Below the pieces are notes generated by a model. The model was not told the DNA's origin. It searched no databases and was given only the letters and a program-made list of their open reading frames with translations. From NCBI GenBank assembly GCA_001724025.1, contig MEDJ01000011.1:1-64000 (forward strand): DNA of 64,000 bases, read 5' to 3'. Positions 31,914 to 38,773 of this stretch are shown in pieces (the stretch's first letter is position 1; the number at the start of each line of letters is the position of its first letter). Origin of the DNA: Acidobacteria bacterium SCN 69-37. Lineage in GTDB: Bacteria; Acidobacteriota; Vicinamibacteria; Vicinamibacterales; SCN-69-37. The translations under genes were made by a program, and so were the position numbers.

Positions 31914-32570
31914 TTGCGCAAGAAATGGTACAGCTTCTTCGTCGTCACTGACGGCCCCGCGCGGTCCGCCAGCGCGCCGGAGCCTGCCGTGGCGGCCAGG
32001 CGGGCCGAGGACGTGGCGCCGGCCGCACCGGTCGCGATCGCCGACGAGGCGGCCGTGAGCGGTGGCGCATCCATTGCCGACGTGTACGAGGCCGCGAGCA
32101 TCGTGGCGCCCGCGCACGGGTACACGGTGCTCAAGGTTGCCGAGATGCTGCAGAGCGCACACATCCGCGCGCTGCCGCCCGACGTGAAGCGCAAGTCGGT
32201 GCTGGTGGCGCTGGATGCCGCGGGCGTCTCGATTGACGCGGTCGTGGCCGATGCCGTGGCGCGCGATCGGGCGCTCGACACCTATGAACACGTGCTCGAG
32301 CAGCACGTGGACACGCTGCGTGCGGCCAAGGCCGCCGAGAACGAGCAGATCGAAGCGGAATTGGCGCGGCTGACCGCAGAGCTGCGCGCGAAGGTCGACG
32401 GGAACAACCGGGACGTGAGCCGCGAGCAGGCTGAACTGCAGGCGTGGCGGGCGCGTAAACAGCACGAAGAATCGACGATTGCCGAGGTCGTGAGCCACTT
32501 CGTGTCGGAGAACCCGATCACGACGACGGCCGCGGCGGCCGAGGCCAAGGGGGAGACCCATGTTCGCTAG
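31914..32570 (+). CDS. Coiled-coil protein of unknown family, first gene of PspA block
   Basis: A 218-aa protein I do not recognise. It starts with a basic-aromatic stretch (MRKKWYSFFVV), then an Ala/Pro-rich linker (15-50), a globular part (about 55-115, YTVLKVAEMLQSAHIRALP) and a charged coiled coil (about 120-195) like that of its neighbour PspA. The TTG at 31914 is the first possible start after an in-frame TGA, with GAGGTGA just upstream. Its last 11 bases overlap pspA, so translation is coupled. A PspA-binding or PspA-loading role is inference. Confidence 0.6.
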   Translation: MRKKWYSFFVVTDGPARSASAPEPAVAARRAEDVAPAAPVAIADEAAVSGGASIADVYEAASIVAPAHGYTVLKVAEMLQSAHIRALPPDVKRKSVLVALDAAGVSIDAVVADAVARDRALDTYEHVLEQHVDTLRAAKAAENEQIEAELARLTAELRAKVDGNNRDVSREQAELQAWRARKQHEESTIAEVVSHFVSENPITTTAAAAEAKGETHVR

Positions 32571-33309
32571 ACTCAGCCGCCTGCTCCGTGCGTGGATGGG
32601 CTTCTTCATTTCGAAGGCCGAGGATCCCGAGGTGATGCTGCAGGATGCCATCGAGGAGATGCGCATCACCATGCCGAAGCTGAACTCGGTGCTCGTGGCG
32701 ACCCGCGCGACGGTCATTCGCCTCGAGGAAGAACGCGACGCCCTGCAGCGCACCGAGCGCAATCTGACGGCTGCGATTCAGGCCGCGCTGCGCGATGGTT
32801 CGGCCGCGGCGCGCGCCGTGGCCGAGGAAGATGCCGTGCAGCTGCAGCAGCTGCGCGTGGACCTGGCGAGCACGCTCGAACAGTGGGCCTCGGCGCAGAA
32901 GGCGCACGAGAGCGCGCAGGTGTCGGTCGATTCGCTGAAGGCAAAGCTCAAGGACAAGATCGAGGCCAGCCAGCGCGCGCTCAAGGAGCGGGAGAAGGCC
33001 AAGGTCCTGCGCGTGGCAGCCGATGCGATTGCGGAGCTGCAGTCCTACGGGGTGGCGGCCACGGCCGACAAGTTCCTCGATCAGATCAAGCAGGAAGTGG
33101 CCGAGTCGAAGGCGGCCGTGGAGGTGGCGACCGGCCAGCTCGATACCGGCGCGATCGAACGCGAACGAACCGCGCGCAAGGTGAAAGCCGCGGCCGTGCT
33201 ACACCAGTTCGAGGTGGAGATGGGCCTGGTGGCGCCGCCCTCGTCGACGACCGCTGCTTCGACCACGCCCACGGTCGGCGCGCGCGTCGGAGATCAGCAG
33301 GGATCGTAG
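32560..33309 (+). CDS. pspA: PspA/IM30/Vipp1 family membrane-remodelling protein
   Basis: A 249-aa member of the ESCRT-III superfamily. The N-terminal segment (residues 1-22, LSRLLRAWMGFFISKAEDPE) is the membrane-inserting amphipathic helix; long charged coiled-coil helices follow (about 25-215), then a disordered Ser/Thr tail. Such proteins form rods or rings that bind and repair damaged inner membrane. No pspB, pspC or pspF homologue is nearby; instead an AAA+ ATPase is two genes downstream, recalling the ESCRT-III/Vps4 pairing. It overlaps the upstream gene by 11 bases. Confidence 0.88.
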   Translation: MFARLSRLLRAWMGFFISKAEDPEVMLQDAIEEMRITMPKLNSVLVATRATVIRLEEERDALQRTERNLTAAIQAALRDGSAAARAVAEEDAVQLQQLRVDLASTLEQWASAQKAHESAQVSVDSLKAKLKDKIEASQRALKEREKAKVLRVAADAIAELQSYGVAATADKFLDQIKQEVAESKAAVEVATGQLDTGAIERERTARKVKAAAVLHQFEVEMGLVAPPSSTTAASTTPTVGARVGDQQGS

Positions 33310-33324
33310 GCGGCCCCCCGATTC

Positions 33325-34209
33325 ATGGCGGCTCCGGATGACGACGTCTCGGCCGGGTCGATCCTGCGCGAACTGATCTTCAATCAGTACCAGGCGATCA
33401 TTCTTGGCGGTACGACCCTGATGTCGCTCGTCGCGCTCAACCCGCTGCCGCTGCTGGTGTGGCTCGGATCGGAGCTCATGCTGCTGCCGGTGCTCGACTC
33501 GGGGCCGCTCCGTCGGCTCGTGGCGCGGCGCCGGCGCGCGGCGGCGAAGGCCCAGGCCGATGCGGCTCGTCAGCGCGTCGTCGCGGCATTGACGCAGGGC
33601 CACGCGCGCCGGTACCAGGCGCTGGCCGAGCGCTGCCGGAGCATCGAGGCGAACTATCAGAGCCTGACGGGCATCTCGCAGGTGTATCTCGCCGAGCAGC
33701 GCAGCAAGCTCGACCTAATCCTGCAGGGGGCGCTGCACCGGTTGACGGCGCTCCAGCGCTACGAGCGCCTGCCGGTGCACCGTCGCGTCGACGAGGTCGG
33801 GCAGGAGATCGCGCAGATCGCACGCGAGATCGCCCAGCCCGACGTGCCGGAACGCACCGCGGCCGCGTTGCGAAAGAACCTGGAGCTGAAGCAGCGGCTC
33901 CGTGCGTCGCTGGCGGAGGTGGACGCCACGGTGCGGACGCTCGAGACCGAGCTCGACTCGATGGCCTCGCTGCTCGAGGTCCTGCACCAGAACTCGATCT
34001 CGCTGCGCGATCCGCAGGCGATCGCGGAGGAACTCGACACGATCGTCAGGCAGTCGGAGGATTCCGAGCGCGTGGTGCGCGAGATGGAAGCGCTGCTGCG
34101 GGCCGATGGCGCGTCGTGGGCCACTGACGTCGCGCCCGTGGCCATGCCGGCCCGGTGGGACGCGGATGCCGCGGCAGGTGGCGGACCACGGAAGGTCAGG
34201 GACCGGTGA
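33325..34209 (+). CDS. Membrane-anchored coiled-coil protein of unknown family
   Basis: A 294-aa protein with a hydrophobic hairpin near the N terminus (about residues 20-55: AIILGGTTLMSLVALNPL, then LLVWLGSELMLLPVL), an Arg-rich stop (RRLVARRRRAA), and long coiled coils (about 65-255). Predicted topology: membrane anchor with a large cytosolic helical rod. I do not recognise a named family. It lies 15 bases after pspA, and its stop overlaps the AAA+ start (GTGA), so it probably links PspA or the membrane to the ATPase. That is inference from position and shape. Confidence 0.62.
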   Translation: MAAPDDDVSAGSILRELIFNQYQAIILGGTTLMSLVALNPLPLLVWLGSELMLLPVLDSGPLRRLVARRRRAAAKAQADAARQRVVAALTQGHARRYQALAERCRSIEANYQSLTGISQVYLAEQRSKLDLILQGALHRLTALQRYERLPVHRRVDEVGQEIAQIAREIAQPDVPERTAAALRKNLELKQRLRASLAEVDATVRTLETELDSMASLLEVLHQNSISLRDPQAIAEELDTIVRQSEDSERVVREMEALLRADGASWATDVAPVAMPARWDADAAAGGGPRKVRDR

Positions 34210-35963
34210 GCGATACGCTGCCACGCTTCGAGCACTACCCCGCGTGGGCCCGCGCGCTCGCGCACGGCATCCGGGCGCGGCTCGGCAATACGTTCGTCCT
34301 GCACGGCAATACGCACGATCTGCAACCGGCGCCGGTGGAGGGCCGTGTCCCGATCGCGACGGACTTCGTGCCGACGGCGTCGTTCCTGGCCGATTGGATC
34401 TTCGGTCGACGCGAAGTCGTGATCGAGTATCAACGCGCCAACGGTCCGATCTTTCACACGCGCGATGCGCACAGGGACCTGACGGAGGTGGCGGCCACGA
34501 TCGACGCCGTCCATGGGACCGATCTGTCGCGGGCCCTGCCGCGCGATCCCATCGGGTTCTGCACGCTCCTCGACGCGTTTTTCAAGCACTTGGCCTATCG
34601 GCCGCAGCCGATCGGCGTGGCCGTGATCTTCCCGTACGCCGAGACGCTCGTGCCCGACTCGGCGCTCGAGTCGAGTGCCGAGGACCGCGCCGTGCGCGTG
34701 TTCATCCAGAAGTGGTCGACCGACCCCGTGCTGATCGCCGCGCACGTGACGATCGTCCTCGTGACCGAGAACCTGGCCGACATCAGCGCGCGGCTCGTGC
34801 GATCGCCACAGACGATCGAGATCGAGGTCGAGCGGCCGGACGTGGCCGGTCGGCAACGGTACCTCGAGGCGGTCCGTGATCCGGCGTGGTTCGCCGCGCG
34901 CGCCGATCTGTCGGCCGAGCGGCTGGCGGCCATGACGTCGGGCCTGACGCGCATCCAGCTGCGGCAGATCCTGGCGTCGGTCGACGAGCACGGGACGAGG
35001 CTCGATGCGAAGGCGCTGCGCGAACAGAAGAAGGGCGTGATCGAGGCGGAGTGCTTCGGCCTGCTCGAGTACGTCGAGGCGCCCTATTCGCTCGACATGG
35101 TCGCGGGGCACGAGGGCGTGAAGCTGCGCCTGCGTCGCGCGGCCGACGCGATTCTCGCGGGCCGTCTGCGGGGCGTGCCGATGGGCTATCTGATCGCCGG
35201 CCCTGTCGGATCGGCCAAGACGTTCCTCGTCACCTGCTTCGCCGGCGAGATCGGATTCCCGTGCGTGAAGTTTCTGAACTTCCGCTCGCAGTGGCAGGGC
35301 GTGACCGAGGGCAACCTCGAGAAGATCCTGAAGCTGCTGCACGCGATGTGGCCGGTCGGCGTGATCATCGACGAGGCTGACGCGTTCCTCGGCGACCGCA
35401 ACCAGCAGGGCGACTCGGGCACGTCGAACCGCGTGTTCGCGCAGCTCGCGTCGTTCATGGGCAACACCGAGTATCGCGGCCGGATCGTCTGGTTCCTCAT
35501 CACGAGCCGTCCGGACCTGCTGCCCGTGGACCTGAAGCGGCAGGGGCGTGCCGAGGAGCACCTCGCCCTGTTCTATCCGCAGACGATCGACGAGCACGAC
35601 GAGCTGTTCCGCATCATGCTGCGCAAGGGGCAGGTCACCACGCCCGTGCAGTCGATTCGCGAGGTCACCGACGATCCGTCGGGACTGTCGGGGGCCGACA
35701 TCGAGGCCATGCTCGCGCGCGCGATCCTGATGGCCGACAGCGTCGACGAGGCGGGACACCCGGTGCTGTCGGCCGAGGCGCTGCGCCGGAGCTTTGCGGA
35801 TTTCATCCCGGCCACCAGCCCGCTCGAGCGCGAACTGCAGATCCTCGTGGCCGTGCAGGAGTGCACGTCGCGCGAGATCCTGCCCGAGGCGTACCGGGAT
35901 CTCGATCGGTCCGCCGTCCTGACCCGCGTCAACGAACTACGTGCCCTGCTGCGGGATGTCTGA
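34206..35963 (+). CDS. Classic AAA+ ATPase linked to PspA, with unusual P-loop
   Basis: A 585-aa protein. The N-terminal half (about 1-290) looks like a decayed AAA-type domain of the Ycf46 kind (HGNTHDL, then VIFPYAE and an IVLVTENLADIS block). The C-terminal half (about 300-500) is an active-type AAA+ module: Walker A GPVGSAKT, Walker B GVIIDEADAF, sensor 1 ITSRPDL, and KRQGRAEEHL in the arginine-finger position. The P-loop has Ala where Gly normally precedes the Lys, which is odd. A helical C terminus follows. The GTG at 34206 overlaps the upstream stop. By analogy to Vps4 it may disassemble or reshape PspA polymers; unproven. Confidence 0.75.
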   Translation: MSDTLPRFEHYPAWARALAHGIRARLGNTFVLHGNTHDLQPAPVEGRVPIATDFVPTASFLADWIFGRREVVIEYQRANGPIFHTRDAHRDLTEVAATIDAVHGTDLSRALPRDPIGFCTLLDAFFKHLAYRPQPIGVAVIFPYAETLVPDSALESSAEDRAVRVFIQKWSTDPVLIAAHVTIVLVTENLADISARLVRSPQTIEIEVERPDVAGRQRYLEAVRDPAWFAARADLSAERLAAMTSGLTRIQLRQILASVDEHGTRLDAKALREQKKGVIEAECFGLLEYVEAPYSLDMVAGHEGVKLRLRRAADAILAGRLRGVPMGYLIAGPVGSAKTFLVTCFAGEIGFPCVKFLNFRSQWQGVTEGNLEKILKLLHAMWPVGVIIDEADAFLGDRNQQGDSGTSNRVFAQLASFMGNTEYRGRIVWFLITSRPDLLPVDLKRQGRAEEHLALFYPQTIDEHDELFRIMLRKGQVTTPVQSIREVTDDPSGLSGADIEAMLARAILMADSVDEAGHPVLSAEALRRSFADFIPATSPLERELQILVAVQECTSREILPEAYRDLDRSAVLTRVNELRALLRDV

Positions 35964-35990
35964 CGTCCGTCCGTTTCACGGAGGTTGATT

Positions 35991-37649
35991 GTGTCGCGAA
36001 GCCCCCTGTTCGGTTCCCTGCGCCGTGCGTTCCGCCTGGCAGCCCTGTCGTCGCGCGGCGGCGGTCGAACGCCCCCGATCGACGAACTCATCGACATGGC
36101 GTACTCGCGTCGCCGTTTCCTCCGGCAGACGGCGGCTGTCGGCGCCGGCGTGGCGGCGACCTCGCTGGCGGGATGCGCGCGCGGCGAGGGCCCATCAGGA
36201 CCCGCGGGTTCCACGTCGCCAGGGAGCCCCCCGCGCGTGGCGATCGTGGGCGGCGGCATGGCCGGACTCAACACGGCCTACAAGCTGAGCAAAGCGGGTC
36301 TGACCGCGACGATTTACGAGGGCGCGGATCGTACCGGCGGGCGCATGTTCACGGCCACCGATCTGCTCGGCGACCGGCTGACGACGGAACTGGGCGGCGA
36401 GTTCATCGACAGCACGCACGACGAGATGCTGGCGTTGATGGCCGAATTCGACCTCGAGCGGCTCGACACCCAGGGCGCGGGCTCGGAGAACCTGCGCGCC
36501 GAGACGTACTTCATTGATCGACGACACTACACACATGCCGAGGCGGCGCGGGCGTTCGTGCCGCTGGCCGAGAAGATTCTCGCCGACTACGACGAACTGG
36601 ACGACGTGGTCGACTATCGGAACGCGGGCGGCGGGGTCGAGCTCGACCGGATGTCCATTGCCGCGTATCTCGATCGCATCGGCGCGCGTGGCTGGATGCG
36701 TGAGCTGCTCGAGGCGGCGTACGTCACCGAGTACGGTATGGACGCGGGCGATCAGTCGGCGCTGAACTTCGTGTTCCTCATCGGCACCGGCGATCTCGAG
36801 GACGCGACGGCGATGTCGCTGCTCGGCGACAGCGACGAGCGCTACAAGGTGCGCGGCGGCAACCAGCGCATCGTCGATGCGTTGGCGACGCGCGTGGAGT
36901 CGCAGATCCGGCGCCGGCACCGGCTCGAGGCCATTCGCAGCCGCGGCGAGGGTTTCACGCTCACGTTCCAGACCGATGGCGGCGTGATCGATCAGGACGC
37001 CGATATCGTCGTGCTCGCGATCCCCTTCACGCTGCTGCGCGAGGTGCGCATCGACGTGAACCTGCCGGACGTCAAGCGCCACGTGATTCAGGAGCTCGGC
37101 TACGGCGCCAACGCCAAAGTGCTCGTCGGGTTCAACAGCCGTCCCTGGGAGGCGCAGGGCTATAGCGGGGCCACCTACAGCGACGAAACGTTCCAGCTTG
37201 CGTGGGCCAACAGCTATCTGCAGCCGGGCAGCGCCGGCGGACTGACCTTGTATTCGGGGGGAACGCCCGCGATCGAGGCCGGGCAGGGCACCCCGGAAGA
37301 GGCGGCGACGCGCCTGCTGGCCGGCATCGAACGCGCGTACCCGGGGGCGCTGCGCGCGCGTAACGGCAAGGTCTCGCGATTCCACTGGCCGACGTTCCCG
37401 TGGACGAAGGCCAGTTACGCCTGCTACAAGGCCGGGCAGTGGACGACGCTGGCCGGAAGCGAGAGTGTGCCTGTCGGCAACCTGTTCTTCGCGGGCGAGC
37501 ATTGCAGCTACGATTTCCAGGGCTTCATGAACGGCGCGGCGCAGTCCGGCGCCGACACGGCCGTGGCCGTGCTGGCACAGATCAGTGGCAGCCGCCTGCC
37601 GGCGGCCGCACGGCGCTATTCGCGCCGGCAACTGGCTCGACTGGCCTAG
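35991..37649 (+). CDS. Tat-exported FAD-dependent amine oxidase-family protein
   Basis: A 552-aa flavin oxidoreductase. The twin-arginine motif SRRRFLRQ (residues 38-45) is followed by a hydrophobic stretch and a lipobox LAGC, so it is probably a Tat-exported lipoprotein. The dinucleotide motif VAIVGGGMAGLNTAYKL and the C-terminal FAD block LFFAGEHCSYDFQGFMNGA define the amine oxidase/protoporphyrinogen oxidase-like family. The GTG at 35991 has GGAGG 6 bases upstream; an ATG at 36096 directly before the Tat motif is the alternative. It lies 27 bases after the AAA+ gene. The substrate, perhaps an amine or amino acid, is unknown. Confidence 0.82.
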   Translation: MSRSPLFGSLRRAFRLAALSSRGGGRTPPIDELIDMAYSRRRFLRQTAAVGAGVAATSLAGCARGEGPSGPAGSTSPGSPPRVAIVGGGMAGLNTAYKLSKAGLTATIYEGADRTGGRMFTATDLLGDRLTTELGGEFIDSTHDEMLALMAEFDLERLDTQGAGSENLRAETYFIDRRHYTHAEAARAFVPLAEKILADYDELDDVVDYRNAGGGVELDRMSIAAYLDRIGARGWMRELLEAAYVTEYGMDAGDQSALNFVFLIGTGDLEDATAMSLLGDSDERYKVRGGNQRIVDALATRVESQIRRRHRLEAIRSRGEGFTLTFQTDGGVIDQDADIVVLAIPFTLLREVRIDVNLPDVKRHVIQELGYGANAKVLVGFNSRPWEAQGYSGATYSDETFQLAWANSYLQPGSAGGLTLYSGGTPAIEAGQGTPEEAATRLLAGIERAYPGALRARNGKVSRFHWPTFPWTKASYACYKAGQWTTLAGSESVPVGNLFFAGEHCSYDFQGFMNGAAQSGADTAVAVLAQISGSRLPAAARRYSRRQLARLA

Positions 37650-37675
37650 GCGCCTGAGGACGAGGGGGGAGAGGC

Positions 37676-38773
37676 ATGGCGAATGGATCGGGTGGCGGCG
37701 GCGTCCGCTTGACGGGACCGGGCAAGTTCCTGCTGTTTCTCGTGGGGCTCGCGGTATTGGCGTTCGCGGCGTGGACCTACCGCGACTCGCTGCCGTTCGG
37801 GCGGACGACCACTTCGACGTCGAACTCAACGTCGACCAGCGGCGCGCCAGCCGGGCCGTCGACCACGACGGCCGCAGGCGGGCAGCAGGCGGGCGTGCTG
37901 GCGCGGGTGCGACAGAGTGGCGTGTTGCGGGTCGGCATGGAACCCGACGCCCCGCCGCTGCACTTCATCAACGCGCGCAAGCAGGAAGACGGCTTCGACT
38001 TCCGGCTCGCGGGTGTGGTGGCCGAAGGGCTCGGCGCGCAGCGGATTCAGGTGGTCGAGGCCGACTACGAAGATCTCCCGGATCTGCTGCGTCGCGGCGA
38101 CATCGACGTCATCATGGCCGGCTACGTGCCTGATTCGTCGATCGCGGATGTCGTCTGGTCGAACGGCTACCTGGACTTCGGCCTGGCGATGATCGTCCAC
38201 GAGGGCATGACGTCGACGTTCCGATCCGTCCGCGACCTGACGGGCAAGCGGATTGCCATCTACGATGATCCCGCTGCCGATCGCTGGGTCCGCGAGAACA
38301 TCCCGAACGCGCGCATCAGCAGGTTCTCGGGCGACGACGGCTGGTTCGAGGCCGTGGAGCGCAACGATGCCGACGCGTTGATCTACGACTATCCGTTCGC
38401 CGCCGAGGAGATCAAAGCGCACCCGCGCACGACCATCGTGCAGTACAACCTGAATCAGTCGAGGTACGCCGTCGGGATTCCGGCCGGCAACTACGACCTG
38501 GTGTACGAGGTGAACCAGGCCATCGACCGGTTCCGCGCGACGCCGCAGTACACCGAGTTGATGCGCGAGTACCTGTCGAGCGAATCGGACGTGTTCACGC
38601 GGCCGATCGCCGGCCGTCGGACATACACGGTCAAGGCCGGCGACACCCTGAGCCGGATCGCGGGCACCGAACTGAACGATCAGAACCGCTGGCGCGAAAT
38701 CTGGGATCTCAATCGCGACCGCGTCGCCAACGAGAACCTGATCTATCCGCGGCTGGTGTTGCTGATGCCGTGA
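37676..38773 (+). CDS. Anchored solute-binding (SBP3) protein fused to LysM
   Basis: A 365-aa protein with one N-terminal transmembrane helix (about 17-35), a Ser/Thr-rich linker (42-68), a family-3 periplasmic solute-binding domain (about 72-310; VLRVGMEPDAPPLHF, then GDIDVIMAGY) and a C-terminal LysM domain (about 315-365; YTVKAGDTLSRIAG). It faces the periplasm and should bind a small ligand and peptidoglycan. There is no permease nearby, so a sensing role is likelier than uptake; MltF uses a similar SBP3 domain to sense cell-wall peptides. It is the last gene of the block, 26 bases after the oxidase. Confidence 0.82.
   Translation: MANGSGGGGVRLTGPGKFLLFLVGLAVLAFAAWTYRDSLPFGRTTTSTSNSTSTSGAPAGPSTTTAAGGQQAGVLARVRQSGVLRVGMEPDAPPLHFINARKQEDGFDFRLAGVVAEGLGAQRIQVVEADYEDLPDLLRRGDIDVIMAGYVPDSSIADVVWSNGYLDFGLAMIVHEGMTSTFRSVRDLTGKRIAIYDDPAADRWVRENIPNARISRFSGDDGWFEAVERNDADALIYDYPFAAEEIKAHPRTTIVQYNLNQSRYAVGIPAGNYDLVYEVNQAIDRFRATPQYTELMREYLSSESDVFTRPIAGRRTYTVKAGDTLSRIAGTELNDQNRWREIWDLNRDRVANENLIYPRLVLLMP

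Follow-up and report, generated by a model that had tools for sequence, protein, structure and literature searches.

What does an AAA ATPase encoded beside the membrane-repair protein PspA do, and does an unusual residue in its P-loop alter that function? The question is raised by a locus of Acidobacteria bacterium SCN 69-37 (GCA_001724025.1), within positions 1-64,000 of contig MEDJ01000011.1 (forward strand); this whole stretch of 64,000 nucleotides is referred to below as the window. A first-pass annotation of the window had described an ATPase with alanine where glycine normally precedes the Walker A lysine, an intact Walker B and a degenerate N-terminal AAA half, and had proposed that the alanine might slow hydrolysis or be a clade mark of PspA-linked ATPases. 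We compared the ATPase, its neighbours and the associated PspA across homologous loci.

Homologue set

The homologue set comprised 84 proteins from 83 genomes: the window protein, that of locus L001, and 69 plus 13 further rows. The 69 were taken from 73 other rows obtained by searching 396 genomes within the phylum of the window at E <= 1e-20; the 13 were new rows from a search of 193 genomes of the class (E <= 1e-100). G323:C47, G185:C27, G185:C9 and G291:C294 were left out as fragments or short hits, and G461 was taken to be the same as L001. Other phyla were covered by one scan for close relatives and by plasmid, phage and viral searches. Viral contigs yielded no confirmed relatives of the ATPase, and phage matches spanned the AAA core only; plasmid matches came from Paenibacillus, Brevibacillus and Aneurinibacillus at 24-28% identity, and annotated PspA was absent from the stretch in 3 of the 5 looked at.

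Sequence features of the ATPase

The results confirmed the reading frame, the Walker A motif GPVGSAKT with alanine before the lysine, and the intact Walker B (Table 1). The C-terminal half matched PF00004 at residues 329-454 (E 5.2e-19, Pfam), and its best structure matches were Cdc48, VCP and AFG2. Lys338, Asp389, Glu390 and Arg448 are all retained in the window ATPase; across the 84 homologues, the Walker A lysine and the Walker B glutamate were invariant, the Walker B aspartate was found in 83, and the pore-loop-1 position was aromatic (W or Y) in 81. Arg445 and Arg448 correspond to the arginine pair in the second region of homology of classical AAA proteins. These residues (Walker A lysine, Walker B glutamate, two arginines and aromatic pore loop) identify the C-terminal half as a classical AAA motor of the active type.

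Table 1. Features of the PspA-ATPase locus, with positions in the window
Feature	Position	Strand	Details
CC4, helical partner upstream	31914..32570	+	11-base overlap with pspA; in 17/84 loci
PspA/Vipp1 family protein, 249 aa	32560..33309	+	PF04012, E 2.1e-14
PspA C-terminal tail	33238..33306	+	lacks K-x-[LIMV]-G-P, unlike Gly-type relatives
CC3, membrane hairpin and coiled coil	33325..34209	+	stop overlaps ATPase start by 4 bases; in 57/84 loci
AAA protein, 585 aa	34206..35963	+	GTG start 34206, stop 35963; N-half without P-loop, C-half active-type AAA by sequence
N-terminal half, degenerate AAA domain by sequence	34206..35051	+	residues 1-282
Walker-B-like strand of N-half, VAVIFPYAE	34617..34643	+	residues 138-146
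Walker A, GPVGSAKT	35199..35222	+	residues 332-339; Ala337 replaces Gly
Trp363 (SQWQG), pore-loop-1 position	35292..35294	+	aligned to VCP-like 'skwvG'
Walker B, VIIDEAD	35361..35381	+	residues 386-392; Glu390 in 84/84 homologues
Arg445 and Arg448	35538..35549	+	R445 in 78/84, R448 in 83/84 homologues
Flavin amine oxidoreductase	35985..37649	+	PF01593, E 1.8e-52; 21 bases 3' of ATPase
SBP_bac_3 solute-binding protein	37676..38773	+	C-terminal LysM; N-terminal membrane segment

A search for Walker-type patterns found no P-loop in the N-terminal half of any of the 84 homologues. A profile of 33 N-half sequences matched the AAA domains of Cdc48, p97, i-AAA protease, Rix7 and CdvC (best E 5.7e-10), with matches that begin at the Walker B strand and take in the lid. 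Pfam AAA matched 2 of the 33 members, weakly (best E 0.016), and the N-half aligned in register, again weakly, with the protein's own C-half (199 columns, E 2.4e-4, probability 44%; hhalign). Structure prediction gave unusable models, both for the whole protein from a 2-row alignment (mean pLDDT 39.6) and for the N-half from two sequences (mean pLDDT 49.5); Foldseek with the low-confidence N-half model returned nothing at E 0.001 or better, with AAA proteins at the top of the list (E >= 0.12), an outcome not counted as support for the fold. Because AAA profiles match a region without a P-loop, the N-terminal half is at the sequence level a degenerate AAA domain, which bears out the original description of it.

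Operon context

The ATPase gene is the fourth of six closely spaced genes on one strand (31914-38773), which encode CC4, PspA, CC3, the ATPase, the flavin amine oxidase and the solute-binding protein with LysM (SBP-LysM), with successive gaps of -11, +15, -4, +21 and +26 bases. The proposed PspA linkage held, with a single gene between the PF04012 protein and the ATPase; this PspA also matched Vipp1/PspA structures, with E values down to 5.1e-28. CC3 had no convincing match in the PDB, and when it was tested as a PspA/Snf7 relative, only a 62-column coiled-coil match was obtained (E 3.4e-4, probability 38%; hhalign).

In the stretch around the ATPase, PspA was found on the same strand in 59 of the 84 loci and CC3 in 57; PspA was not found there in 25, some of them at contig ends. 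All six loci whose ATPase carries the alanine contained PspA, CC3 and CC4. A long form is seen in L092, with PspA, SBP-OmpA, an ABC permease, an ABC ATPase, CC3 and an ATPase with GPVGTGKT; the ABC and OmpA genes present in such relatives are absent from the window operon. The amine oxidoreductase gene occurred in three of the six alanine-type loci, adjoining the ATPase gene in L001 and lying upstream of it in L090, and the SBP-LysM gene in two, L001 among them. The SBP-LysM protein possibly replaces the SBP-OmpA protein seen in longer operons. The N-terminus of the amine oxidoreductase carries a twin-arginine motif and a lipobox-like sequence about 40 residues in, following a conserved leader.

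Within the window's family (f1), a full-length ATPase was found in the window genome (G000) only, among 14 genomes searched. The operon is therefore patchy, by transfer or loss, and the pattern suggests transfer or repeated loss.

The Walker A alanine

The residue before the Walker A lysine was glycine in 78 of the 84 homologues and alanine in 6 (the window, L001, L090, L091, L143 and L144). The alanine proteins are the nearest relatives of the window protein (50-73% identity): GPVGSAKT recurs in a 73%-identical protein of a Luteitalea MAG (contig WHSN01000027) and in four others that are 50-53% identical, and this recurrence in five related proteins rules out a sequencing accident. A tree of 73 of the 84 ATPases, built by a quick method with the P-loop columns removed and SH-aLRT support without bootstrap, placed the alanine proteins in one group with a single change (SH-aLRT 100); it omitted the distant L080-L088 and two fragments, L061 and L089. 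The alanine has persisted across a tree distance of about 1.3 changes per column, as far as L090.

The proposal that alanine marks the PspA-linked ATPases thus survived only in narrowed form: the residue is kept within its six-member clade, and it is the mark of a sub-clade rather than of PspA-linked ATPases at large, because 53 of the 59 loci with same-strand PspA have glycine, in the same operon context, which is the finding that the first-pass annotation had itself named as refuting the broad claim. Further changes specific to the clade are Ser336 in place of threonine, Gly385 in place of a bulky residue just before Walker B, and Pro143 in the N-half, at the aspartate position of the Walker-B-like strand (proline in 6/6; D, N or E in most others). 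The changes at 336 and 385 lie on one branch with the alanine, and so offer a lead for compensation rather than evidence of it. Literature searches on a Walker A glycine-to-alanine change or on Ycf46 found nothing relevant.

A tail motif in the associated PspA

PspA proteins encoded with glycine-type ATPases end in a low-complexity tail in which K/R-x-[LIMV]-G-P lies no more than about 21 residues from the C-terminus. Among 49 glycine-linked PspA, 36 had the strict motif, 5 had the G but not the P, 7 ended in KT[LM] and 1 was without it; the PspA of the alanine clade lacked it in 6 of 6. This count excludes L158 (open end), a second ORF in L052, L056, where PspA is truncated, and the seven PspA that accompany distant ATPase subfamilies (L080-L084, L086, L087). 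PspA of the same clade in genomes whose ATPase is present and unlinked had the strict motif in 9 of 12, including all five f40 genomes, and in genomes lacking the ATPase (E <= 1e-20) in 1 of 28, with 6 showing KQ[IV]G without P and 21 without the motif. The single strict case was G042, whose genus-mates have the ATPase; most of the ATPase-less rows come from one family (f31). Canonical PspA had no motif in genomes with the ATPase (0/8) or without it (0/16), and two f79 genomes (L111, L246) keep a glycine-type ATPase with the motif missing.

In the f40 genomes (L200, L201, L202, L203 and L208; G108, G135, G175, G063 and G075, respectively), pspA lies away from the ATPase gene and the tail motif is kept; the distance in G108 is about 1 Mb. 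The PspA of two distant ATPase subfamilies end in LPE (4/4, L080-L083) or RPxI (3/3, L084, L086 and L087), which fits subfamily-specific tails.

Shuffled tails gave the motif in a mean of 0.065 and a maximum of 2 of 49, a figure that is not a probability because the pattern was written after the tails had been seen and because the rows share ancestry. On a tree of 74 PspA, 5 independent pairs differed in whether the ATPase is present; the motif agreed in 1.4 of them on average, none was opposed and 3.6 showed no difference, a number of pairs with which a sign test cannot reach significance, and the phylogeny-corrected support for the motif-ATPase association was accordingly not significant. 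Literature searches for a described PspA tail motif found nothing relevant. The K-x-[LIMV]-G-P tail is a new lead, and motors of this type may recognise it as a tail signal.

Proposed role of the ATPase and its alternatives

The ATPase is probably an ATP-driven remodeller of PspA, acting as Vps4 does on ESCRT-III, in the form of a two-domain AAA protein with a P-loop-less N-half. This assignment draws on the tight, same-strand CC4-pspA-CC3-AAA order, on the frequency of PspA and CC3 among the 84 loci, on the AAA features of the two halves and on the tail-motif counts. The N-half would most likely serve as a docking and ring-stabilising layer, the C-terminal motor would extract PspA subunits from membrane-bound polymers, and CC3 would keep the assembly anchored at the membrane. 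For most relatives, the site gripped on PspA would be the K-x-[LIMV]-G-P tail motif. The same role, comparable to Snf7/VPS4, was suggested on context alone in the article of Ravi et al. 2024 (PMC11237479). Points against it are the missing MIT and Vps4_C domains, the 25 loci in which no PspA was found nearby (some at contig ends), the few independent motif events and the f79 genomes. PspA rods are also reported to remodel membranes and slowly hydrolyse ATP with no AAA partner (PMC11746142), so that, on that report, there is no general need for a dedicated ATPase.

The alternatives to this remodelling role differ in what they make of the motor and of its partner. The alanine might make the motor slow or hydrolysis-poor, so that in the alanine clade it would be an ATP-gated clamp on PspA and not a translocase. 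The alanine does adjoin the catalytic lysine and is fixed in 6/6 clade members, the residue just before Walker B is changed to Gly385, and the clade also lacks the PspA tail motif. Nevertheless, RavA, whose Walker A reads GPPGIAKS, hydrolyses ATP and needs to: in the RavA report, its phenotype requires its ATPase activity and the ATPase-dead K52Q mutant fails to complement (PMC3893208). The MoxR structure 2r44 aligns as 'gvpglakt', with alanine at the same place, and the window genome's own MoxR (L120) has GVPGLAKT. With the remaining catalytic residues all kept, the clamp is distinctly improbable and the original suggestion of slowed hydrolysis is not supported; by analogy with RavA and MoxR, the alanine most likely leaves ATP hydrolysis working. 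The glycine-to-alanine change is an ordinary, tolerated P-loop substitution, the mark of one small clade within a PspA-associated type of ATPase that had already been described, and such a switch inside a classical AAA family is by itself of modest interest. It is unlikely, too, that the ATPase is a general chaperone or transporter-linked envelope factor with which PspA is co-regulated without being its substrate. Many relatives do lie in operons that also encode an ABC transporter together with a solute-binding protein of OmpA type, and the window operon has SBP-LysM and the amine oxidase; yet the commonest neighbours are PspA and CC3, and the tail motif is kept in 9 of the 12 genomes in which pspA does not adjoin the ATPase gene.

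For the tail motif itself, there is a substantial chance, somewhat short of even, that it is clade-inherited, serving for example membrane or partner binding, and bears no relation to the ATPase. The motif and the ATPase follow the same tree, the five pairs give no significant association, and f79 has the ATPase without the motif. On the other hand, PspA from either side of the deepest split in their tree carry the motif, in tails that otherwise resist alignment, and the two groups without an ATPase in the same PspA clade (f31 and f19) have lost it or keep an eroded form. This alternative bears on the tail lead alone and leaves room for the remodeller explanation of the ATPase. A bolder form of the remodeller explanation, which we put forward tentatively and consider rather doubtful, is a bacterial ESCRT-III/Vps4-like pair in which the dead N-ring of a two-layer motor reads the PspA tail (K-x-[LIMV]-G-P, and KT[LM]-, LPE- or RPxI-ends in other subfamilies), with the code rewritten on both sides in the window's clade (a different tail and a GSAK P-loop). 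In that clade, with glycine replaced by alanine and the PspA tail motif gone, the remodelling motor would most likely still hydrolyse ATP. The tail motif is a more interesting outcome than the P-loop change, as it makes the Vps4-like reading concretely and cheaply testable.

Comparison with known systems

The MoxR/RavA proteins share the alanine before the Walker A lysine with the window ATPase and otherwise belong to a different AAA+ family; AAA_3 (PF07726) was not among the Pfam matches of the window protein. Cdc48/p97, AFG2 and Rix7 share the tandem AAA layout and gave the best sequence matches, whereas the window ATPase has a P-loop-less N-half and no Cdc48 N-domain match in Pfam.

The kind of ATPase is already known, because Ravi et al. 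2024 (mSystems, PMC11237479) described a PspA-associated protein with two AAA domains, the N-terminal copy being inactive, and reported that longer operons with an ABC ATPase, a permease, a PBPB-OmpA protein and a TM-bearing Snf7 homologue may occur. The PspA neighbour, the two AAA domains and an apparently inactive N-terminal copy are shared with the window, and its relatives also have a TM coiled-coil protein, the ABC transporter and the PBPB-OmpA protein. The window differs by a GSAK rather than GTGK P-loop, by a PspA tail without K-x-[LIMV]-G-P, and by an operon with the amine oxidase and SBP-LysM instead of the ABC transporter. A term search of the main text of that article found no mention of Walker motif, amine oxidase or LysM.

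With Vps4/CdvC, the window ATPase shares the classical AAA type, an ESCRT-III-superfamily partner (PspA/Vipp1) in the operon and the aromatic pore loop. It differs in being bacterial and in its second, degenerate N-terminal AAA domain, and Pfam gave no MIT match at E up to 1 and no match to the Vps4_C oligomerisation domain. The pore loop of Vps4 is aromatic, and its MIT domain reads tail motifs of ESCRT-III. If the dead N-ring does read the PspA tail, that tail would be the counterpart of the ESCRT-III motifs read by the MIT domain, and an ATPase dedicated to PspA, with a tail motif to read, would be directly testable with short peptides and point mutants.
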